Source: a virus | DNA: 38,528 nt | Reading direction: 5' to 3' (one strand) | Virus record (IMG/VR): IMGVR_UViG_3300021959_009863 | Coordinates: 1 to 38,528 of that record | Shown here: piece after piece, positions 5,918-35,253 of the stretch | Layout: the number at the start of each line of letters is the position of its first letter | Numbering within the stretch: the first letter of the stretch is position 1 | Position numbers and translations under genes: made by a program | Notes under the pieces: generated by a model | What the model was told of the DNA's origin: nothing | Databases searched by the model: none | What the model saw: only the letters and a program-made list of their open reading frames with translations

Positions 5918-6615
5918 CAGAAAGCCTTTTAGAAAACAAATACAACTACCCCAAACTAAAAAGAGTAACAGCAAAATCAGGACAACGCCAATACACAGGC
6001 GATGACAATAATCCTGTACCTAGTGTTACCACTATCCTTTCAGACACCGGAGATAAGACTGCTCTTATTGCCTGGCGTAAACGTGTAGGAGAAGCAGAAG
6101 CAACTCGTATCAGTACAGAAGCCGCAGGACTTGGTACTAAAGTACATAATGCTTTAGAAAAATATATTCTTGGTGAAGAGTGGAACACCTTTGGTAATAA
6201 CCATGTCAGTATATTAGCAGAATCAATGACAACCGAGATGGTTAATAACGGACTAACAAAAATAGATGAATTGTGGGGCGTAGAAGTAGCCTTAATTGCA
6301 AAAGGATTGTATGCAGGAACTTCAGATGCAATTGGCATGTATGAGGGCGAAGAGGCAATTATAGATTTCAAAACTGCAAAAAAGATCAAAAAACGTGAGT
6401 GGATCGAAGACTACTTTTTGCAAGGGTGTGCATACGCATTAGCACACAATGAAATGTTTGAAACAAAGATAAAAAAAGTAGTCATACTTATGGTCGACAG
6501 AGAATCTAAGTTTAAAGAATTTATAATTGAAGGCGAAGAATTCGATAAGTACTGTGGTAAATGGGCCGAAAGATTGGCTGACTACTACGGAAAAGTCGAT
6601 GCAAAAAAAGATTAA
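5899..6615 (+). CDS. PD-(D/E)XK exonuclease, RecB-like
   Basis: A nuclease of the PD-(D/E)XK fold, as in T4-like marine phages. Visible motifs are PSVTTIL near the N-terminus, a helix with GTKVHNALEKYI (the histidine-containing RecB motif), GTSDAIG (the first acidic metal ligand), IDFKTAK (the D-x-K core) and DYFLQGCAYALA (the conserved Q-x-x-x-Y helix), all in the expected order. At 238 residues it is complete. It probably degrades DNA ends in recombination or host DNA breakdown. The start is a GTG at 5899; a second GTG at 5911, overlapping the previous stop, is equally possible. Confidence 0.8.
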   Translation: MDNQVVTESLLENKYNYPKLKRVTAKSGQRQYTGDDNNPVPSVTTILSDTGDKTALIAWRKRVGEAEATRISTEAAGLGTKVHNALEKYILGEEWNTFGNNHVSILAESMTTEMVNNGLTKIDELWGVEVALIAKGLYAGTSDAIGMYEGEEAIIDFKTAKKIKKREWIEDYFLQGCAYALAHNEMFETKIKKVVILMVDRESKFKEFIIEGEEFDKYCGKWAERLADYYGKVDAKKD

Positions 6616-8497
6616 TATAAGTTTAGTTCAGCCGGGGTTCGACGTAGGTCCGACTCATATGAACATTTACTACTTTCCTTACACAGTTGGTCTACTGTGG
6701 GCATACGCAAAGCAAAATAAATTAATTGAAAGTAATTTTACTGTAAATTCTATAATCTTTAGCAGAACACCTTACAAAGAAAATCTGAAGCAAATTAAAA
6801 AAAGTAAAATAGTGTTCTTTAGTGCCTATGTATGGAACTGGGAGATGTCTTTAAAACTAGCAGAAGATTTAAAAAAACATGATCCAGAAATTTTAACTGT
6901 ATTTGGAGGGCCACAATTACCTCATACACAAGACGATTTATTTTTGAAGTTTCCTCAAATTGATACTGTAGTTGTAGGCGAAGGGGAACAAGTTTTTGAA
7001 GAAATTTTACTAGCATATTTAGAAAATAAAAAAATTGATAAAGTTATTAAAGCAGAAAGAATCAAAGATTTAAAATTACCTAGTCCTTATTTAGAAGGCA
7101 TCTTTGATAAAATCATAGAGGAAAATCCAGATGTACAATGGAACCCAACATTAGAAATTGATAGAGGATGTCCTTATAAATGTACCTTCTGTGACTGGGG
7201 CGGACTAACAAACGCCAAAGTATATAAATTTGAATTAGATAGAGTGTTTGCTGAGATCGAATGGTTTAGCAAACATAATTGCGACTTTATTTCTTGTACA
7301 GCGGCAAATTTTGGTATATTCAAAGAAAGAGATATGCTTATAGCAAAAAAACTTGTAGACGAGCATTCTAAGAATAAAGTTATTAAAAAATTTCAGTGTA
7401 GTTACGCAAAAAACAGTAATGCTGAAGTAGTTGAGATTATCAAAGTATTAAATGAGGGAGGTGTAAATGCACAGTTCATAATAAGTTTACAATCATTTAC
7501 TGACGAAGTATTAAAAAATATTGAACGTAAAAATATGGACATGGATAAAATTCCTACACTAACATCTTTTGCAAATCAAAATCATTTGCCTGTAGGAACT
7601 GAACTAATTTTAGGTCTGCCTGGCGAAACTTTTGAAACATGGAAATACACAATGGGCGAATTATATGAAAAAGGATTTCATAATTCTATAGATATTTTCT
7701 CGCTACTAATTATTGAAAATGCACCACTTAATTTTCAAAGACAAATGTTTGGATTTGAAACATTCTCTGCAAATGATATGGTAGTTGACTGTACAAATTT
7801 CGAAGATATTTCATTAGGTACGTCAGAAAAATTGCAAGTAATGAAATCAAATAACTCTATGAGTCAAGATGATTTAATAAAATCTTACTGCTACTCGAGC
7901 CAAGTAGTTGCTTTGCATACAATGGGAATAAGCGATATAATCTCCATTTACTTAAACAAATCAAAAGGAGTAACGTATCAAAATTTTTACGAAGGCGCAA
8001 TAGAATACTTAGAAAAAGATTTTGAGTTATGGACATCTGAATTAAAATCTAGTATGTATAATTGGCATAACACAGGTATATACGACTCAAGTGTAGGCAA
8101 CGTCAAAATATATAGTTGGGCAATTCCGTATATTATACCTATGCAAGTACACTATAATCAAAAAGTACCATACTTTATAGATCGAATAGCAAACTATGTA
8201 AGTACAAATTGGGATATAGATAGTGAAATCGTAGATGATTATAAAACAATTTCTCTCAATAGGGTAAAGTACTGGGGTAACTATATACACGAACAAAAAG
8301 TAATTAGTACAAAAACAAATCTATATGACTACACATTTAATAACCAAGATAAAATAATTTTTGAAGAACAAAAGTACACAGTAGATGACCAATATTATAG
8401 AGAGTACGGTAAAAATATTGTTGAACACACGGAATATATACTTTATGGAAGACAACGTAGATGGCATCTCCACAAAGTAAACAAAAAAGATAAATAG
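6599..8497 (+). CDS. B12-binding-type radical SAM enzyme
   Basis: A 632-residue radical SAM protein. The frame opens at 6527, but the ATG at 6599 (MQKKINISLVQPGFD) gives the typical N-terminus and a 17-base overlap with the exonuclease. Residues 1-140 look like a cobalamin-binding Rossmann domain (VFFSAYVWNWEMSLKLAEDL, VFGGPQLPH, VVVGEGEQVFEEIL), without the DxHxxG motif of B12-dependent mutases, as is usual in this family. C191, C195 and C198 (RGCPYKCTFCDWGG) are the [4Fe-4S] ligands. The strand ELILGLPGET is the usual family motif. The C-terminal 250 residues have no known motif. The family includes methylases, cyclases and methylthiolases, so the substrate cannot be given. It is one of three radical SAM enzymes here. 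Confidence 0.85.
   Translation: MQKKINISLVQPGFDVGPTHMNIYYFPYTVGLLWAYAKQNKLIESNFTVNSIIFSRTPYKENLKQIKKSKIVFFSAYVWNWEMSLKLAEDLKKHDPEILTVFGGPQLPHTQDDLFLKFPQIDTVVVGEGEQVFEEILLAYLENKKIDKVIKAERIKDLKLPSPYLEGIFDKIIEENPDVQWNPTLEIDRGCPYKCTFCDWGGLTNAKVYKFELDRVFAEIEWFSKHNCDFISCTAANFGIFKERDMLIAKKLVDEHSKNKVIKKFQCSYAKNSNAEVVEIIKVLNEGGVNAQFIISLQSFTDEVLKNIERKNMDMDKIPTLTSFANQNHLPVGTELILGLPGETFETWKYTMGELYEKGFHNSIDIFSLLIIENAPLNFQRQMFGFETFSANDMVVDCTNFEDISLGTSEKLQVMKSNNSMSQDDLIKSYCYSSQVVALHTMGISDIISIYLNKSKGVTYQNFYEGAIEYLEKDFELWTSELKSSMYNWHNTGIYDSSVGNVKIYSWAIPYIIPMQVHYNQKVPYFIDRIANYVSTNWDIDSEIVDDYKTISLNRVKYWGNYIHEQKVISTKTNLYDYTFNNQDKIIFEEQKYTVDDQYYREYGKNIVEHTEYILYGRQRRWHLHKVNKKDK
8489..8496 (+). promoter_or_regulatory. 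T4-type late promoter GATAAATA
   Basis: GATAAATA overlaps the stop codon of the radical SAM gene and ends 5 bases (GTTGT) before the ATG of the fibre gene at 8502. Confidence 0.75.
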
Positions 8498-16230: not shown

Positions 16231-17925
16231 ATGACTGTTAAAACATATCTAGTATCATTCGAACACGAATACATAGACGGTAGTTCCGTTAATTTTGATA
16301 AATCAGCAACAGAAACAGCACTCACAAGTGCTGGAGCAACAATAGATGCAAGTTTTGATCATTCCAGAGTTGGCATGTATAAGTTTGATATCGACGATGC
16401 TAATACCGGTAATATAACATCTATTCCAGGATATGTATGTTCCGAAAATATCACGGACCAAGCAGATGCTACACTACTAATCAGCGAAGCAACAAGCGAA
16501 TGGCACAAACAACGAATAGTAACAAGAAACTTGCCACTGAGAACAACATACGATCCAGTTTACACTGGTAACTCAGCAATAGTGTATTTAATGGACAGTG
16601 GTGTAGATACAGGACATCCAGAGTTTACTGGAAAAAGTTTTGAGCCTGTTTTTAGTGTTAAAGAATCACCAAGCGATTTTACTGATTTTATAGAAGGCGG
16701 TGGCCTATCAACAGATTTTGATACTGCAGACAAACACGGCCATGGAACAGCAATGGCAAGTTTGATCAATGGTGCTACATACGGTGTGGCCGGAGATGCC
16801 ACAATAGGAATCGTTAAAATTTCCGACCCTTCAGTAGATGATGGTGCTATTAAATTAGAAAATGTATTAAATGCATTTGAGTCAGTTAGACGTCATGTTG
16901 GTATTAATAGAATAGATTTTAATACATCTCCAACAGTTTGTATGGCTTGGAGTTTTGCCAAATCACAATTATTAGACAGATATGTTTCTTACTTGTATAA
17001 TAGAGAAGGAATACTAATGGTTGCCGCGGCAGGTAATAACGGTGCTGATGTTGACGGTTATTCACCAGCAGGTCTTAACGAAATTTTAACAGTAGGCGCA
17101 AGTGACAGTTCAGATAATGTACCAACATTTTCAAATGATGCAGGTGCAGTAGTAGAACAGGGTTCAGGACTACAAACAAACGGTGGTGAAGAAGTTGATG
17201 TTTTTGCACCAGGTGTAGCAGTTAATATGGCAAGTATTACTAACAGAGTTGAGGTAGGTAACTACACAGGCGTTACTGGGGATGATTTAAAAACAACAGC
17301 AAGTGGTACAAGTATCTCATGTGCAATAGTATCAGGTTTAGGAGCCTTAGTTGCAGAAAGATTTGGTACTAGTTTAGCAACTGCACAGTCTATGAAAGAG
17401 TTAATTATCGAACAATCATTAACAGGATTACTTTTCCAAGATCCTGCTTTATACAGTGGCACACCAAATAACATTGTGTTTGCAGAAAATGAATATTATG
17501 CAACTGTGTGGAATACAGCCGCTGGTAATTTGGGCGACTTTTTACTTACTGATGCAGGAAACGTTAATATCAGTTTAAATGTTGCTAATACTGTAACAGA
17601 TATTGCAAGTTCGGACTTTGCCGCACTACCACCAGCATTAGAGTTAAGTGGTAATGCATCAGCAGGCTGGAACATTACAGCAAATACAAGTGTAACGGGA
17701 AGTATGAGCAATACTACAATTTACAACTTTATTTTAACAGCAACCAAAAATGATAATACAAAATACAACAGACACTTTTCAGTAAGTTTGTTTGGTTCAG
17801 AAGGCATTACTGAAGCAGAAAGAGAGTCTGGTACAGAGACTTACTTTATAAACGAAGATGGTACACTCAGTGAAGTTGTTTACGGTGCAGGTAGTTACGG
17901 CGGACAAAAAAGTGAAAAACCATAA
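16231..17925 (+). CDS. Subtilisin-like serine protease (S8)
   Basis: A 564-residue protein with the complete subtilase triad: D122 (VYLMDSGVDTGHPEF), H171 (DKHGHGTAMA), S361 (ASGTSISCAIVSG), and the oxyanion asparagine near residue 269 (VAAAGNNGA). Residues 1-80 may be a propeptide or an attachment domain. After the protease domain comes a beta-rich C-terminal part (residues about 420-540) like a cadherin- or Ig-type module. There is no signal peptide, so it is likely a virion-associated protease or one that acts in virion maturation, not a secreted enzyme. It follows GAAGGAAAA, a ribosome binding site, and ends at a strong terminator. Confidence 0.85.
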   Translation: MTVKTYLVSFEHEYIDGSSVNFDKSATETALTSAGATIDASFDHSRVGMYKFDIDDANTGNITSIPGYVCSENITDQADATLLISEATSEWHKQRIVTRNLPLRTTYDPVYTGNSAIVYLMDSGVDTGHPEFTGKSFEPVFSVKESPSDFTDFIEGGGLSTDFDTADKHGHGTAMASLINGATYGVAGDATIGIVKISDPSVDDGAIKLENVLNAFESVRRHVGINRIDFNTSPTVCMAWSFAKSQLLDRYVSYLYNREGILMVAAAGNNGADVDGYSPAGLNEILTVGASDSSDNVPTFSNDAGAVVEQGSGLQTNGGEEVDVFAPGVAVNMASITNRVEVGNYTGVTGDDLKTTASGTSISCAIVSGLGALVAERFGTSLATAQSMKELIIEQSLTGLLFQDPALYSGTPNNIVFAENEYYATVWNTAAGNLGDFLLTDAGNVNISLNVANTVTDIASSDFAALPPALELSGNASAGWNITANTSVTGSMSNTTIYNFILTATKNDNTKYNRHFSVSLFGSEGITEAERESGTETYFINEDGTLSEVVYGAGSYGGQKSEKP

Positions 17926-20753: not shown

Positions 20754-21839
20754 ATGGCACGGAATAAAAAGTCCAGAAATAAAAAATACGATCCAGCAAA
20801 AGCACAGAATACTATCAAAAATACTGATGGTGTTCAGTCAGCACTTTCAGAAAACCTTACACCGCAACAAATGGCAGAGCAAGAAACACTATTCAATCTG
20901 TTAGAAAGAAAGATAGAAATTCCTGTACAAAACTTTGAAGACAAACACCTGTTTATTGCAACACCGTGTTATGGTGGGCAAGTAACAGAACCATATTTAA
21001 GAAGTATGGTTAGACTTATACTATTAATGAACAGGTTTGGTGTAAAATTTACTCTTAGTACATTGGCAAATGAAAGTTTGATCACAAGAGGCAGAAACAC
21101 ACTTGTAAGTTTCTTTATGGAAAACAAAGAAGCAACACACTTGATGTTTATTGATGCTGATATTGAATTCAATCCAGAAGATGTTCTTAGAATGTTAGCA
21201 TACGATAAACCTATTATTGTTGGTGCATATCCTAAAAAAGCACTTAATTGGGATAGTATTTTACAAGCCGCTAGGAATCCTGAATTAAATGAAACAGCAG
21301 ATTCTATTGAAGGCCATAGTTCTAATTATGTAACTAATTTTGAATTTGCAAAAGACGAAAACGGCCAGCCAATATCACAAGTACAAATCAAAGATAATTT
21401 AATTAAATTACTTGATGGCGGAACAGGATTTATGACCATCAAAAAAGAAGTCATACAGAAAATGTTTGATAAATTACCAGAAACAAAATACAACAATGAT
21501 TTAAACATTGATAATAAGTTTGAACCATTTATGTATGCATTATTTGATTGTATAATTGATCCAGAAAGTAGACGATACTTATCAGAAGACTATACTTTCT
21601 GCAGACGTTGGCAAGATATGGGTGGCGATATTTGGTTAGACCCTAGAGTAAGTCTTAATCATGTTGGGCATTACACATTCAACGGTAATGTGAGAAAAAT
21701 GCTCACTGGAGAAACTAAAGTAACTACTAACTATGTTTCTCCAGATGAACGACCATATGTTATTGGTGCTTCAAATAAAGTACAACCAGAGCCACAAGAA
21801 CAACCACAGAAATCTATACAAATAAGTAAAAAGAAATGA
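20754..21839 (+). CDS. Glycosyltransferase (GT-A fold)
   Basis: A 361-residue protein. After a basic, disordered N-terminus of about 60 residues comes a GT-A core: LFIATPCYGGQVTEPYLRSM, TLSTLANESLITRGRN, then FIDADIEFNPEDVLRM with the metal-binding D134-A-D136. Later elements are LDGGTGFMTIKKEV and YTFCRRWQDMGGDIWLDPRV, typical of this phage glycosyltransferase group. A nucleotide sugar donor is expected; acceptor unknown. It overlaps the next glycosyltransferase by ATGA, so they probably act in the same pathway. Confidence 0.8.
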   Translation: MARNKKSRNKKYDPAKAQNTIKNTDGVQSALSENLTPQQMAEQETLFNLLERKIEIPVQNFEDKHLFIATPCYGGQVTEPYLRSMVRLILLMNRFGVKFTLSTLANESLITRGRNTLVSFFMENKEATHLMFIDADIEFNPEDVLRMLAYDKPIIVGAYPKKALNWDSILQAARNPELNETADSIEGHSSNYVTNFEFAKDENGQPISQVQIKDNLIKLLDGGTGFMTIKKEVIQKMFDKLPETKYNNDLNIDNKFEPFMYALFDCIIDPESRRYLSEDYTFCRRWQDMGGDIWLDPRVSLNHVGHYTFNGNVRKMLTGETKVTTNYVSPDERPYVIGASNKVQPEPQEQPQKSIQISKKK

Positions 21840-22654
21840 AGAAGATAAGTGTATTATTAGCCACAAGGCAACGACCAAACATGCTAGACAAAAGTTTAGA
21901 TAGTTTATTAACTAACATAAGTGATACTAGTAATATCGAAATTATGTTAGGCATTGATAACGATGATCAAGAAACATTAGATTTTGTACAGTCAGAAGAC
22001 TTTCAAAACAAAATGCAAGAAGAATATAATGTAGATGTACAAGCAGTTTTATTTGATAGATTAGGCTACAAAAATTTACATCAATACATGAATCAACTTT
22101 GGGGACAGGCAAGTGGCGAATGGCTAATGCTGTGGAACGACGATGCTATTATGGAAACTAAAGATTGGGATTTAGAAATTGGAAAATTTGATAATGAATT
22201 TGCATTATTAAAATTTAATCAAACAAATCACAAACATCCATACGCATTATTTCCAGTGATACCTACAGATTGGTGCAGGCTTATTGGTACGTTTAGTATG
22301 AATGCACAAAATGATGCATGGCTAAACTTAATTGCTAAACCACTGGGAATAATCAAAGATATTCCAGTAGATGTATTTCATGACAGATTTGATCTCACAG
22401 GTAATAACGATGACGATATTTTTAGAAGCAGAGAATATGCAGAGGGCAATCCTCAAGACCCAAATGATCTAATGAGCGAAAATAATATCAGAATGCGAGA
22501 TGCAGTTATACACAAAATTGCATGGTACTGTAATAGGATTGGGCAAACAGAAACAAGCGATTACTTTGATAAAGTAAAAGCAGGTAAAATTAATCCTTTT
22601 GATGATTGGAAAAAAATTAGGGAAGAATCAGTAGGTTTAGGCTCAGGTTTATAA
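21836..22654 (+). CDS. Glycosyltransferase family 2-like
   Basis: A 272-residue protein opening ISVLLATRQRPNMLDKSLDSL, which is the first strand and helix of a family 2 glycosyltransferase, followed by IEIMLGIDNDD and the metal site WLMLWNDDAIM (N101-D102-D103). The C-terminal half (DVFHDRFDLTGNNDDDIFR) is less typical. It starts inside the stop of the upstream glycosyltransferase (ATGA). The late promoter for the bL33 gene overlaps its end. Together the two enzymes may build a sugar on a virion protein or modify host glycan; the sequence does not say which. Confidence 0.75.
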   Translation: MKKISVLLATRQRPNMLDKSLDSLLTNISDTSNIEIMLGIDNDDQETLDFVQSEDFQNKMQEEYNVDVQAVLFDRLGYKNLHQYMNQLWGQASGEWLMLWNDDAIMETKDWDLEIGKFDNEFALLKFNQTNHKHPYALFPVIPTDWCRLIGTFSMNAQNDAWLNLIAKPLGIIKDIPVDVFHDRFDLTGNNDDDIFRSREYAEGNPQDPNDLMSENNIRMRDAVIHKIAWYCNRIGQTETSDYFDKVKAGKINPFDDWKKIREESVGLGSGL

Positions 22655-22870: not shown

Positions 22871-22899
22871 TTGACATATACTATAAATAGTAGTATAAT
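22871..22899 (+). promoter_or_regulatory. Perfect sigma70 promoter with internal late box
   Basis: TTGACA (22871-22876), 17 bases, TATAAT (22894-22899), both perfect and optimally spaced. Within the spacer lies TATAAATA (22882-22889). A further AATAAATA is at 22862-22869. The sigma70 start would be near 22906, two bases before the ATG at 22908. So the operon can be read by host polymerase early and by phage late machinery later. Confidence 0.8.
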
Positions 22900-22907
22900 A
22901 GGTTATT

Positions 22908-23333
22908 ATGGAAGAAAAAAGATATAGAATATTTGTGTACGGTACACTAAAATCAGGCAACAAAACTCGTGGTTTAGATAGTATGGGTTTTGAAGATGTT
23001 CAGATGGAAAAAATTGGACAAGCAGTAACCACTGATAGTAAATTTAATATGGCTGATTTAGGATCTTTTCCTGGTGTAATTATTAATGGCACACATGATA
23101 TAGTTGGCGAAGTTTGGGAAGGTGGTGAAGACTTTTTACAACTATGCGACAGCATCGAGGGCCATCAAGGCGATAAACTTAAAAACTTTTATCACAGAGA
23201 TTTAGTCAATACCACAGAAGGTAAAGCATTCATATATCATTTAGATCCATGGTATTGGAGTGATTATGGCGACGATTATGAAAATGTTCCTAGCATCACA
23301 TTATCCAATAATAAATTAACCTGGAACGGATAA
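22908..23333 (+). CDS. Gamma-glutamylcyclotransferase-like protein
   Basis: A 141-residue protein of the GGCT/AIG2-like fold. The signature YGTLKSG (residues 11-17) binds the substrate glutamyl group, and the catalytic glutamate is E84 in LCDSIEGHQGD. The family releases 5-oxoproline from gamma-glutamyl groups, as in glutathione or gamma-glutamyl amine turnover. The length is normal. It follows an early/late promoter and overlaps the peptide deformylase gene by one base. A glutathione-related role would fit the phage glutaredoxin, but the true substrate is unknown. Confidence 0.8.
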   Translation: MEEKRYRIFVYGTLKSGNKTRGLDSMGFEDVQMEKIGQAVTTDSKFNMADLGSFPGVIINGTHDIVGEVWEGGEDFLQLCDSIEGHQGDKLKNFYHRDLVNTTEGKAFIYHLDPWYWSDYGDDYENVPSITLSNNKLTWNG

Positions 23334-23878
23334 TGGAATACGCATCACAATGGAACACTACTCTAGTAGAACCTAAACATCCAGTACTACACAATCCTGC
23401 AGGTATTGACCCACTTGATACTGATATAGTATGGCAAACAGTTGAACAAGAAATGTTTAAACTGATGCACGAAAGAGTAGGCATTGGTTTAGCCGCACCA
23501 CAACTGGGCAATCCAGTAAAAATGTTTGTAATGAGACATAGCACTGAAGGAGATATTGCAGTATATAATCCTAAAATAATAAACGTATCAGAGGAAACAG
23601 TCAGCATGGAAGAAGGCTGTTTAACATTTCCAGGATTATTTTTCCATGTGACAAGACCAGAAGGCGTACAAGTAACTTTTCAAAATAGAAAAGGCGAAGA
23701 ACAAAGCATGGAACTAACAGGTATGGATTCTAGATGCTTTCAACATGAAACTGATCATATACATGGAATTTTAAACTTAACATATATTAGTGATTTTAAA
23801 TTACAAAGAGCAATACAAAAACGTGATAAACTTGTAAGAAAATATTCTAATATGAAGAAAAAAGTTAAACGTTTATAA
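23333..23878 (+). CDS. def: Peptide deformylase
   Basis: The 181-residue enzyme removes the formyl group from new proteins at the ribosome. All three motifs are present: GIGLAAPQ (residues 50-57), EGCLTFPG (94-101, with metal ligand C96; T replaces the usual S) and QHETDHIHG (137-145, with H138, E139 and H142). Phage deformylases typically lack the long C-terminal extension; this one has a basic helical end (KRDKLVRKYSNMKKKVKR). Its neighbour bL33 also acts at the ribosome. The gene is preceded by the stop of the GGCT-like gene. Confidence 0.93.
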   Translation: MEYASQWNTTLVEPKHPVLHNPAGIDPLDTDIVWQTVEQEMFKLMHERVGIGLAAPQLGNPVKMFVMRHSTEGDIAVYNPKIINVSEETVSMEEGCLTFPGLFFHVTRPEGVQVTFQNRKGEEQSMELTGMDSRCFQHETDHIHGILNLTYISDFKLQRAIQKRDKLVRKYSNMKKKVKRL

Positions 23879-23882
23879 TTCT

Positions 23883-25328
23883 ATGAAAGTAGTTATTGTC
23901 TCTTCTCTTGCAATTCGAGGAACTAGATTAGGCGGCTTAGACAATAATGCTAGACTAAGCGGACCATTATCAATATGCGAAATGGTTAGAGAATTAGGCG
24001 GTGAAGCAACAACTGTAGATTATTTTGATAAATGGGATTTAAATATTCTAGCAGAAAGTCTGTGTAAATGGTTTGGCAACGAGAAAAATATTATAATAGG
24101 CACCAGCGGTAGTGTTAATGACGGCAATACAATATTATTTGCTAGACTGTGTAGAATTATTAAAGAAACACACCCTCAATTAAAAGTAATGCTCGGTGGC
24201 TATCGAGTAATCACCGGTAATGCTGATTGGGTTGATATTAGTTTTATTGGTAGATGCAGAAACTTAGTTAAAGAATGGTTAATGGGCAACGATATAAGCG
24301 AATATCAAATATCAGATAATCCTCCATCATTTAGAAATCCGCATAATATAATTAAAGAAGAGCCAGTAAGTCCTATAATGCATTATAGCGACTTTGCTTC
24401 AAGTGAAGAATTAATAACAATAGAACTAAGTTTAGGATGTAAATTTAATTGTGCATTTTGTGGATTTGATTACAGAAACAATAAAAAAGCGGTAGTCAAT
24501 ACTGTTGAGAAAGTAGTAAACAGTTGCCAAACAGCATATGATCTATTTGGAATGACCAATTTTTTTATTGCCGATGATACAATTAACGAAGTAAATTCTA
24601 AACTAGAAGTTCTCGCCGAAGTAAGTAAACAATTAAGTTTTACACCTGAGTTTATGGCATTTGCTAGAATGGACATTATGGGTGCTAAACCCGAGCAAAT
24701 ACAACTAATGCAAGAAGCAAATTTAAAAACAATATTTTTTGGTATTGAAAGTTTAAATCCTGCTGTGACAAAAGATATACGCAAAGGCGGTAAGCCTGAA
24801 AGAAACTATGACATAATGAGGATGATCAAAAGAGATTTTCCAGAAGCATTTACTTACGGAAATTTTATAATAGGTTTAGAAGGAGACAATGAAAAAGACA
24901 TGTGGAAACACATGAACAATCTTGTTGACGAACAGTTATTAACCTCTGCAGGATGCAATGCTTTACGCATTTATAATGATTTAGATAATTGGGAAAACAT
25001 GAGTGACATTGATCGCGACCCTGCTAAATTTGGTTATACTATTTCAAATAAAAAAGAATTTGCAGGACAGTACGGCTATGATGCAAGTCATTGGACAAAT
25101 AGTTGGACTAATTATGAATATGCAAAGAAATTAAGTTATGATGTAGACATGTATCTTTCGTCTAACTTACCTAGCAGTTATACCGCACATGAACACTTTA
25201 GTATTAAAACACTAATGCCTGGAATGTTGCACGAAGAATATTCTGCTATATTACCGATAATTAATAACAAAGCAACTATGTTGCAATCAAAATATATTAA
25301 GAAAAAAATAGCATGGCTGAACGAATGA
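23883..25328 (+). CDS. B12-binding-type radical SAM enzyme
   Basis: A 481-residue radical SAM protein. Residues 1-140 have the Rossmann-like pattern of a cobalamin-binding domain (MKVVIVSSLAIRGTRLGG, KVMLGGYRVITGN). C186, C190 and C193 (LGCKFNCAFCGFDYRN) are the cluster ligands. Later, IFFGIESLNPAVTKDIRKGG and YGNFIIGLEGD are the usual barrel strands. The substrate is unknown. It overlaps the GH6 gene by ATGA and shares an operon with two oxygenases and a ferredoxin, which may be its electron donor. Confidence 0.85.
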   Translation: MKVVIVSSLAIRGTRLGGLDNNARLSGPLSICEMVRELGGEATTVDYFDKWDLNILAESLCKWFGNEKNIIIGTSGSVNDGNTILFARLCRIIKETHPQLKVMLGGYRVITGNADWVDISFIGRCRNLVKEWLMGNDISEYQISDNPPSFRNPHNIIKEEPVSPIMHYSDFASSEELITIELSLGCKFNCAFCGFDYRNNKKAVVNTVEKVVNSCQTAYDLFGMTNFFIADDTINEVNSKLEVLAEVSKQLSFTPEFMAFARMDIMGAKPEQIQLMQEANLKTIFFGIESLNPAVTKDIRKGGKPERNYDIMRMIKRDFPEAFTYGNFIIGLEGDNEKDMWKHMNNLVDEQLLTSAGCNALRIYNDLDNWENMSDIDRDPAKFGYTISNKKEFAGQYGYDASHWTNSWTNYEYAKKLSYDVDMYLSSNLPSSYTAHEHFSIKTLMPGMLHEEYSAILPIINNKATMLQSKYIKKKIAWLNE

Positions 25329-26182
25329 ATTATCCATTCTGGGTTTTTGATTGGAATCGTGTTAAGGATTATCAAGAACAATATCCATTGTCAAAAGAGA
25401 TATTTAAATATCCACTAAGTTTATGGTATGGTAATCGTAGTGCAAAACCTATAAAAGGTTTAGATAAAAGTTTACGCAGACTATTTAATCGCAGTGGCGA
25501 CAAGATGCCTGTGCTAGTTGTATATAATATGCCTAATAGGGATATCGGTCAATACAGTAAAGGTGGTGCTCAAACACAGGACGAGTACTTAGAATTTATA
25601 CAAGATTTTGCTAATGGTATCGGCAATAATAAACCTATAGTAATATTTGAACCAGATGCTATTCCACATATTACGCACTTACCAAAGCGAGAAGCAAATA
25701 ATAGAATAGAACTTATTAAAAAGGCATTAGAAATACTTACTCAAACAGGTGCATACATTTACATAGATGTAGGTCATAGTAATTGGTTAACACCAGAAGA
25801 AGTTAATCATTTTCTAGACAAAGTATCCAATAAAAAAGTAAGAGGTTTTAGTGTTAATGTAAGTAATTATAGAACAACATCAGAGTCGGCAAAATGGGCA
25901 AACAAAATATGCGAACTAAGGCCAAAGGACTATTATGTTATAGACACTAGTCGTAATGGCAATGGGCCGCATGGAAACGAATGGTGTAATCCCCCAGGTA
26001 GAGCATTAGGCGAACCACCCACATGTGACACAGGATTAGAAAAATGCGATGCTTATCTTTGGATTAAAATACCAGGCGAAAGTGACGGTAAAGCAAACGG
26101 TGGTCCAAGAGCAGGAAGAATGTGGGGCGAAATGGCAGAAGAATTAGTTAGGAATACAAAATGGATCAAAACTTCTTTATAA
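25325..26182 (+). CDS. Glycoside hydrolase family 6 catalytic domain
   Basis: A compact 285-residue GH6 domain, the family of endo- and exo-cellulases that cleave beta-1,4-glucan with inversion. Conserved blocks appear in order: VLVVYNMPNRDIGQYSKGG (D73, equivalent to D175 of Trichoderma Cel6A), IVIFEPDAIPH (D111, equivalent to the catalytic acid D221), YIDVGHSNWL, GFSVNVSNY, VIDTSRNGNGP, WCNPPGRALG and WIKIPGESDG (D254, equivalent to D401). There is no signal peptide and no carbohydrate-binding module. I chose ATG 25325, which overlaps the previous stop by ATGA, over the one at 25313. A cytoplasmic or virion role is therefore more likely than secretion. Confidence 0.9.
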   Translation: MNYPFWVFDWNRVKDYQEQYPLSKEIFKYPLSLWYGNRSAKPIKGLDKSLRRLFNRSGDKMPVLVVYNMPNRDIGQYSKGGAQTQDEYLEFIQDFANGIGNNKPIVIFEPDAIPHITHLPKREANNRIELIKKALEILTQTGAYIYIDVGHSNWLTPEEVNHFLDKVSNKKVRGFSVNVSNYRTTSESAKWANKICELRPKDYYVIDTSRNGNGPHGNEWCNPPGRALGEPPTCDTGLEKCDAYLWIKIPGESDGKANGGPRAGRMWGEMAEELVRNTKWIKTSL

Positions 26183-26739
26183 TAGATAACTTTTATAATA
26201 ACCCAGATGATGTGCGAGAATATGCTCTTGGAAGAGAATTTATCACAGAAGGCAATTATCCTGGATATAGAACAACCCCGGAACACAAAGAGCAACACGA
26301 GTATTTAAAAACATTTTTTGAAGATAGTGTAATTAAAAAGCCTATATCATACTGGCCAGAAGAGTACAATACTGCATATCAGATTACTACAGACGAATCC
26401 AAAACATGGATACATCATGATGAAACCACATGGGCGGCAGTATTATACTTAACACCGAATGCACCTGCAGAATCAGGTACTGGTATCTATAGACACAAAC
26501 CAACAGGCATATATCAATGGGACGGTGTTAAAGATTCTACATCTGATTTTAATAATTCTGATTTTCTAGGCGAGGAACACATGGGCCAATGGGAACAGAT
26601 AGCATTTGTAGGAAATGTATATAATCGATTAGTATGCTACAAAGGATCACTTTACCATAGAAGTGTATTACCTGGATTTGGAACAGATAAATATTCAGGT
26701 AGATTGTTTCAAACATTCTTTTTTGATACACAGGAATAG
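26161..26739 (+). CDS. Fe(II)/2OG oxygenase-fold protein (DUF6445-like)
   Basis: A 192-residue protein. It begins FFIIDNFYNNPDDVREYAL, followed by NYPGYRT and then YQITTDESKTWIHHDETTW with the metal pair H85-x-D87 (H86 is adjacent). The distal ligand H166 is in KGSLYHRS and R181 in SGRLFQTFFF would hold 2-oxoglutarate. This is the order of the Fe(II)/2OG double-stranded beta helix fold, similar to the DUF6445 family. The substrate is unknown. It overlaps the GH6 gene by 22 bases, so the two are probably co-translated. Confidence 0.75.
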   Translation: MDQNFFIIDNFYNNPDDVREYALGREFITEGNYPGYRTTPEHKEQHEYLKTFFEDSVIKKPISYWPEEYNTAYQITTDESKTWIHHDETTWAAVLYLTPNAPAESGTGIYRHKPTGIYQWDGVKDSTSDFNNSDFLGEEHMGQWEQIAFVGNVYNRLVCYKGSLYHRSVLPGFGTDKYSGRLFQTFFFDTQE

Positions 26740-34995: not shown

Positions 34996-35253
34996 TTACT
35001 TTTTCTTTTTAAGATTGGCCACTTCTTTTTCTAAGTCTACAATACGTTGACCTAATAAAGGATATTGTGCTAACCATTTTTCTTCGCGACTAGCAATTTC
35101 TAAATCATATCGCTTTGCTACCCACTCCATTGTGTTATCCATTTTAACTTGAAACCATACACCCATTTTGGTGTTTTTAAACCACTGATAAAAACTACTA
35201 CCAATTATGCTTGATAGTATGCTTTTAAGTGTTAGTATGATTAACCAATTCAT
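34996..35253 (-). CDS. Membrane-anchored coiled-coil protein, 85 aa
   Basis: An N-terminal hydrophobic segment (NWLIILTLKSILSSIIGSSF) is followed by QWFKNTKMGVWFQVKMDN and a C-terminal coiled coil (LGQRIVDLEKEVANLKKKK). It starts inside the stop of the upstream gene (ATGA overlap). The order membrane segment, amphipathic part, coiled coil is typical of small phage membrane proteins; I recall similar unknown proteins in marine T4-like phages. A link to lysis or to the tail at the membrane is only a guess. Confidence 0.65.
   Translation of the reverse strand: MNWLIILTLKSILSSIIGSSFYQWFKNTKMGVWFQVKMDNTMEWVAKRYDLEIASREEKWLAQYPLLGQRIVDLEKEVANLKKKK

Follow-up and report, generated by a model that had tools for sequence, protein, structure and literature searches.

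Judging by its distribution across viral contigs, a glycoside hydrolase of family 6 (GH6) belongs to the conserved core genes of a large clade of uncultured, jumbo T4-like phages. We analyzed the gene in a 38.5-kb IMG/VR record (hereafter the window, meaning this whole stretch of DNA) and in relatives found by scanning IMG/VR, which yielded 22 loci with the single protein query and 76 loci with an alignment query. With about 76 IMG/VR loci carrying it, GH6 is not a one-off captured gene. The window features on which the argument turns, with the number of the 76 loci holding each neighbor, are as follows:

20754 to 21839, plus strand: phrog_1574 protein (E = 6e-48), weakly glycosyltransferase-like (weak Anp1 match), 55 of 76 loci
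21836 to 22654, plus strand: GT2-like glycosyltransferase (phrog_14945, E = 8e-11; Pfam below cutoff), 57 of 76 loci
22871 to 22899, plus strand: hybrid promoter-like site ahead of the GH6 unit, by motif only, TTGACA...TATAAT (early type) with TATAAATA (late type) inside
22908 to 23333, plus strand: gamma-glutamylcyclotransferase-like protein (PF06094), first gene of the GH6 unit, 12 of 76 loci
23333 to 23878, plus strand: peptide deformylase (PF01327, E = 7e-39), 66 of 76 loci
23883 to 25328, plus strand: radical SAM protein (PF04055, E = 8e-16), overlapping the GH6 start by 4 bp, 2 of 76 loci
25325 to 26182, plus strand: GH6 glycoside hydrolase, 285 amino acids, catalytic core only, with D73, D111, D148, and D254
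26161 to 26739, plus strand: DUF6445 protein (PF20043, E = 5e-15; phrog_1644), oxygenase-like by eye, overlapping the GH6 end by 22 bp, 10 of 76 loci

Evidence for the core status of GH6 comes from searches that started from its neighbors. In relatives, the first constant gene met upstream of GH6 is nearly always the deformylase. A deformylase-based search returned clade loci (E values up to 5e-46) with GH6 nearby in 26 of 26 cases; the 53 loci that ranked next (E values from 2e-36) all lacked it. In a phrog_1574-based search, the GH6-negative contigs all end less than 9 kb downstream, within the usual distance to GH6, and the longer contigs have the gene. A scan of IMG/VR with a short GH6 DNA motif, one that the jumbo-phage clade keeps, gave 66 contigs, and of the 65 loci newly retrieved in this way, 59 belonged to this clade. 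Clustering of the 52 GH6 sequences analyzed gives 46 groups at 95% identity and 20 at 80%; the least similar pair is 51% identical.

A maximum-likelihood tree of 80 rows, in which a few outgroup rows sit on very long branches, joins the 52 jumbo-phage sequences in a single group (support 100/100) on a stem of 1.27 changes per site. Distances between GH6 sequences correlate with those of the deformylase (Mantel r, 0.67), the GT2-like gene (0.62), and the phrog_1574 gene (0.51), whereas 1,000 permutations gave at most 0.21; by this measure, GH6 is inherited together with its neighbors in a deep clade. A pattern scan of 84,980 cellular genomes, which reaches only sequences sharing the same short motifs, matched three loci, all from Glycomyces (38 to 45%), and of 396 actinobacterial genomes searched with a profile, 32 had GH6 homologues. 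Recent capture from a host is ruled out by the single clade on its long stem and by the match to only three cellular loci in the motif-limited scan. Viral cellulases commonly count as auxiliary genes of sporadic occurrence, acquired from hosts. In the present clade, inheritance with neighbors and an active site that is never lost mean that GH6 must do something these phages need.

The phages were placed through a 340-kb relative, G002, which shares with the window nrdA, nrdB, the glycosyltransferases, GH6, and its neighbors. As G002 encodes T4 gp20 (E = 5e-114) and gp23 (E = 2e-81), the clade is assigned to jumbo T4-like phages, and a T4-like origin, which the sequence-only reading of the window had proposed, is upheld by way of this relative. 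A capsid and portal and a size above 200 kb are seen in G002 only; the window is a 38.5-kb fragment, in which we found no capsid gene. The G002 portal is closest to those of PA5oct, Vibrio phage 2.275.O, XaC1, Phosso, Atu_ph07, SCTP-2, and CBB.

Family membership rests on profile, alignment, and model. Pfam places the protein in GH6, as had been read from its sequence blocks (Glyco_hydro_6, PF01341; E = 3.9e-54; 185 bits against a curated cutoff of 27; profile positions 17 to 299 of 305). This domain fills all 285 residues, with no second Pfam domain, in keeping with the earlier description of a compact protein lacking a binding module. A phmmer search of the PDB gave solely Cel6-type enzymes as top matches, led by Mycobacterium tuberculosis Cel6 (8e-54) and the Thermobifida fusca endoglucanase E2/Cel6A (7e-50), while PHROGs held no family matching the protein. 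We then mapped the active site onto T. fusca Cel6A numbering from the PDB alignment and compared 52 phage sequences. D73, D111, D148, and D254, equivalent to Cel6A D79, D117, D156, and D265, are invariant in all 52; the catalytic aspartates noted earlier are therefore conserved, but they number four rather than three. Equally invariant (52/52) are W34, Y67, R72, H151, and W154 (Cel6A W41, Y73, R78, H159, and W162) as well as S180, N181, W220, K248, and E252 (Cel6A S189, N190, W231, K259, and E263). The single exception among the mapped residues is Cel6A S85, replaced by a lysine (K79) that is invariant in the clade, as is C241. The E value of 4e-54 and the invariant catalytic residues rule out a chance match or misannotation. 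Retention of the active-site residues in 52 of 52 sequences strongly argues that catalysis, and not mere binding, is preserved, and we strongly infer that the enzyme is catalytically competent. Its presumed substrate, beta-1,4-glucan, is deduced solely from family membership and active-site conservation.

An AlphaFold2 model built on the 52-sequence alignment (mean pLDDT, 87.8; pTM, 0.90) adopts the GH6 fold. Its best Foldseek matches are all GH6, with PDB endoglucanases at the top (M. tuberculosis Cel6, TM score 0.89; T. fusca Cel6A, TM score 0.82), so that the structural check suggested by the sequence-only reading gave the expected fold; the aspartate positions were checked by alignment, D73 lying in a lower-confidence loop of the model (residues 71 to 80, mean 66). 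The BFVD viral structure library contained no GH6-like match. Because cellobiohydrolases take about 60 more alignment columns, and the phage protein, at 285 residues, resembles 1TML and 1UP0 in length, the long cellobiohydrolase tunnel loops appear to be absent, as judged from lengths, and the enzyme would be of the open-cleft endoglucanase type.

What sets the phage enzymes apart is their apparent adaptation to the cytoplasm. A simple hydropathy test detected a hydrophobic N terminus in none of the 52 phage proteins, which agrees with the lack of a signal peptide first read from the window's sequence; nearly all cellular GH6 homologues examined carry an export segment. The disulfides of Cel6A, which we take to pair C80 with C125 and C232 with C267, could not form in the phage proteins, neither of them, since positions C80, C125, and C267 are never cysteine in any of the 52. 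An intact active site combined with the lack of both export signal and disulfides argues for an active enzyme that would fold in the cytoplasm.

The gene itself appears intact and maintained. Translation agrees with the open reading frame and plus strand originally assigned to it. An alternative in-frame ATG exists at 25313, but translation probably begins at the ATG at 25325: relatives open with an identical MxYPFWV, and many have a stop codon 2 to 5 codons upstream. In the least diverged, unsaturated pairs, dN/dS is about 0.04 to 0.11, which indicates purifying selection and rules out a decaying gene. In one copy (L063:2086-2940), an in-frame stop ends the protein about 10 residues early; the catalytic residues all precede this stop and are intact.

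The overlaps with the radical SAM and DUF6445 genes bear out the operon setting that had been proposed. The unit in the window runs from gamma-glutamylcyclotransferase through deformylase, radical SAM, GH6, and DUF6445 onward; in relatives the partners vary and include an exoribonuclease, an SprT-like protein, an HD_4 hydrolase, and a glutaredoxin, with the deformylase and the upstream glycosyltransferase pair as the constant neighbors across loci. The HD_4-family hydrolases (PF13328; L068:8361-8858 and L088:8658-9188, the second assigned by eye from the first) belong to an operon ending with GH6; they resemble ppGpp hydrolases and could act on host alarmone signaling. Elsewhere, the window encodes a 564-residue subtilase-family (S8) peptidase (16231 to 17925, plus strand; E = 8e-27), with relatives in 25 of 76 loci, and a radical SAM protein with a B12-binding domain (6527 to 8497, plus strand), an unusual phage cargo that has a relative in G002.

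Among known enzymes, T. fusca Cel6A (1TML) and M. tuberculosis Cel6 (1UP0) share with the phage protein the fold, the compact core, the four aspartates, and nearly all mapped active-site residues, at 34 to 36% identity in the structural alignment; the phage enzyme differs from Cel6A in lacking both disulfides, in its lysine for S85, and in a gene without an export signal. The closest cellular homologues found, secreted actinobacterial GH6 proteins (e.g., from Glycomyces, 38 to 45%), have a signal peptide, lipobox, or membrane segments, are often longer, and lie on a separate side of the tree. In a phage collection from which records very near the window may have been left out, the only distant GH6 relatives were one fecal contig and gp72 of Streptomyces phage Gilgamesh. 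The latter is likewise a phage-encoded GH6 (37% identical), but it is 444 residues long, carries a CBM4_9 domain, lies in the tail gene cluster of an unrelated actinophage, and falls outside the jumbo clade in the tree. A parallel rather than a relative is provided by Erwinia phage S6, for which cellulose is the first receptor and whose GH5 protein degrades carboxymethyl cellulose, a case in which host cellulose matters to a phage and a phage-made glucanase is active (PMC9544554). Its gp094 and gp095 are also phage-encoded beta-1,4-glucanases tied to host cellulose, but they are two-domain GH48 and GH5 proteins of a member of the Schitoviridae (PMC9544554). Viral GH6 has already been listed in surveys of auxiliary metabolic genes on metagenomic viral contigs (PMC8725595, PMC9948696); in the portions of these surveys considered here, the entries are single listings that describe no conserved jumbo-phage core subfamily, a distinction drawn from their descriptions. 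Viral GH6 was thus known before, while the jumbo-phage subfamily and its core status appear to be new, as we found no report of either in the open-access literature.

How might such an enzyme serve the phage? Being folded in the cytoplasm, it can reach beta-1,4-glucan after lysis, on the virion, or by way of an intracellular glucan; the sequence-only reading had likewise named a host capsule or exopolysaccharide, the cell interior, and the virion as possible sites of action. We give about even chances to a soluble endo-beta-1,4-glucanase that is made in the cytoplasm, freed at lysis, and directed at beta-1,4-glucan in the host envelope or matrix. A soluble single-domain protein would fold in the cytoplasm of the infected cell, where it would be held until lysis and released along with the endolysin. 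By inverting GH6 chemistry, in which D111, surrounded by D73, D148, and D254, would donate the proton, it would then cut the beta-1,4-glucan of the host envelope or of a cell aggregate. Candidate polymers are cellulose, glucans that are modified or of mixed linkage, and exopolysaccharides built on a cellulosic backbone. Such cutting may aid both the exit of progeny and their access to new cells.

Release at lysis is ranked first because endolysins share its logic, phage lysis enzymes made in the cytoplasm likewise lacking an export signal, and because neither an anchor nor a structural neighborhood favors the virion. In 13 loci, several of them from the same phage, a T4-type lysozyme (about 150 residues in G002) lies 7 to 10 kb from GH6 on the converging strand, which counts for this reading; against it count the contig G006, where the lysozyme is far off, the direct neighbors of GH6, which are mostly metabolic or host-takeover genes, and the early sigma-70-type motif that is the nearest intergenic upstream promoter in many relatives and would ill suit a gene used solely at lysis. 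A search for GH108 endolysins gave no matches, and none in the controls either.

Promoters, by their motifs, give a mixed picture of when GH6 would be expressed. In G002, 124 genes have an intergenic leader; the octamer GATAAATA stands upstream of 31 of them, structural genes among these, where 0.8 would be expected, and sigma-70-type TTGAC...TATAAT sites stand ahead of other genes, e.g., nrdA. Phage CBB has been described as having RpoD-like promoters and an ATAAATA motif ahead of structural genes (PMC5259590). The GH6 unit follows a late-type promoter in some phages, an early-type promoter in many, and the hybrid site in the window.

It is because of these early-type promoters that a role during infection deserves consideration, although we regard it as rather unlikely. 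GH6 would here act on a cytoplasmic glucan or glycoconjugate, for example by editing what the two neighboring glycosyltransferases make or by hindering host beta-glucan synthesis. The lack of export signal and disulfides fits such a role, as do the retention of the upstream glycosyltransferase pair in 55 to 57 of 76 loci and the correlation of GH6 and GT2 distances. However, the glycosyltransferases lie 2 to 10 kb from GH6, often with another promoter between, they are short proteins and not membrane-bound synthases, and we know of no cytoplasmic beta-1,4-glucan in ordinary bacteria.

A virion-associated depolymerase, in or on the particle and opening a host beta-glucan layer at adsorption, is unlikely as well, and slightly more so. 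Virion enzymes also lack signal peptides, the Gilgamesh GH6 with its CBM4_9 domain sits inside a tail gene cluster, and at its far end the window has a gene whose product is related to an annotated tail protein of Caulobacter phages. The absence of an anchor, trimer, or binding domain and the roughly 100 kb separating GH6 from gp20 and gp23 in G002 mildly disfavor this role, and the early-type promoters in many relatives speak against it too. Least probable by far is a GH6 scaffold whose specificity has shifted to a different polymer with beta-1,4 linkages, for example peptidoglycan or some other surface glycan: the long stem and clade-wide departures from Cel6A, such as K79 and C241, would be compatible with it, but the remaining mapped residues for catalysis and glucose binding are all retained, and the long relatives already have a T4-type lysozyme.

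Taking lysis release as the preferred reading, it is tempting to speculate, at somewhat less than even likelihood, that the whole jumbo T4-like clade depends for infection on a cytosol-adapted GH6 subfamily of its own, a core enzyme whose likeliest task is to breach host beta-1,4-glucan at lysis. If so, these phages would routinely have to get past a cellulose-like polymer of the envelope or matrix in order to spread; and should the substrate be a host beta-glucan, the enzyme would reveal a surface or matrix polymer of a widely infected host group and offer a marker for finding that host. As a predicted small, disulfide-free endoglucanase, it should express easily in the bacterial cytoplasm for testing.

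Further genes around GH6 and the lysozyme include a small protein with one N-terminal membrane-like segment (window 34996 to 35253, minus strand; G002 160341-160628), conserved in about 21 loci, which lies near the lysozyme in G002 and is, by eye, a holin candidate. SGNH/GDSL-like hydrolases, possibly glycan esterases, occur around GH6 or the lysozyme in G002 (155563-158955 and 174569-175507), L086 (10860-11699), and L088 (10839-11723); as conserved partners of GH6 they are ruled out, with 8 of 77 loci positive in a motif search and weak Pfam support.

Finally, of 362 distinct copies of the late-type motif [GT]ATAAATA, 99 stand exactly 5 nucleotides ahead of an ATG, versus about 2% for control octamers, as counted over the window (22650, 27753, 30408, and 31070 on the plus strand; 34575 on the minus strand), loci L026 to L099, and G002 (L108 to L124). 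Given normal promoter geometry, this spacing predicts leaderless late mRNAs in the jumbo T4-like clade.
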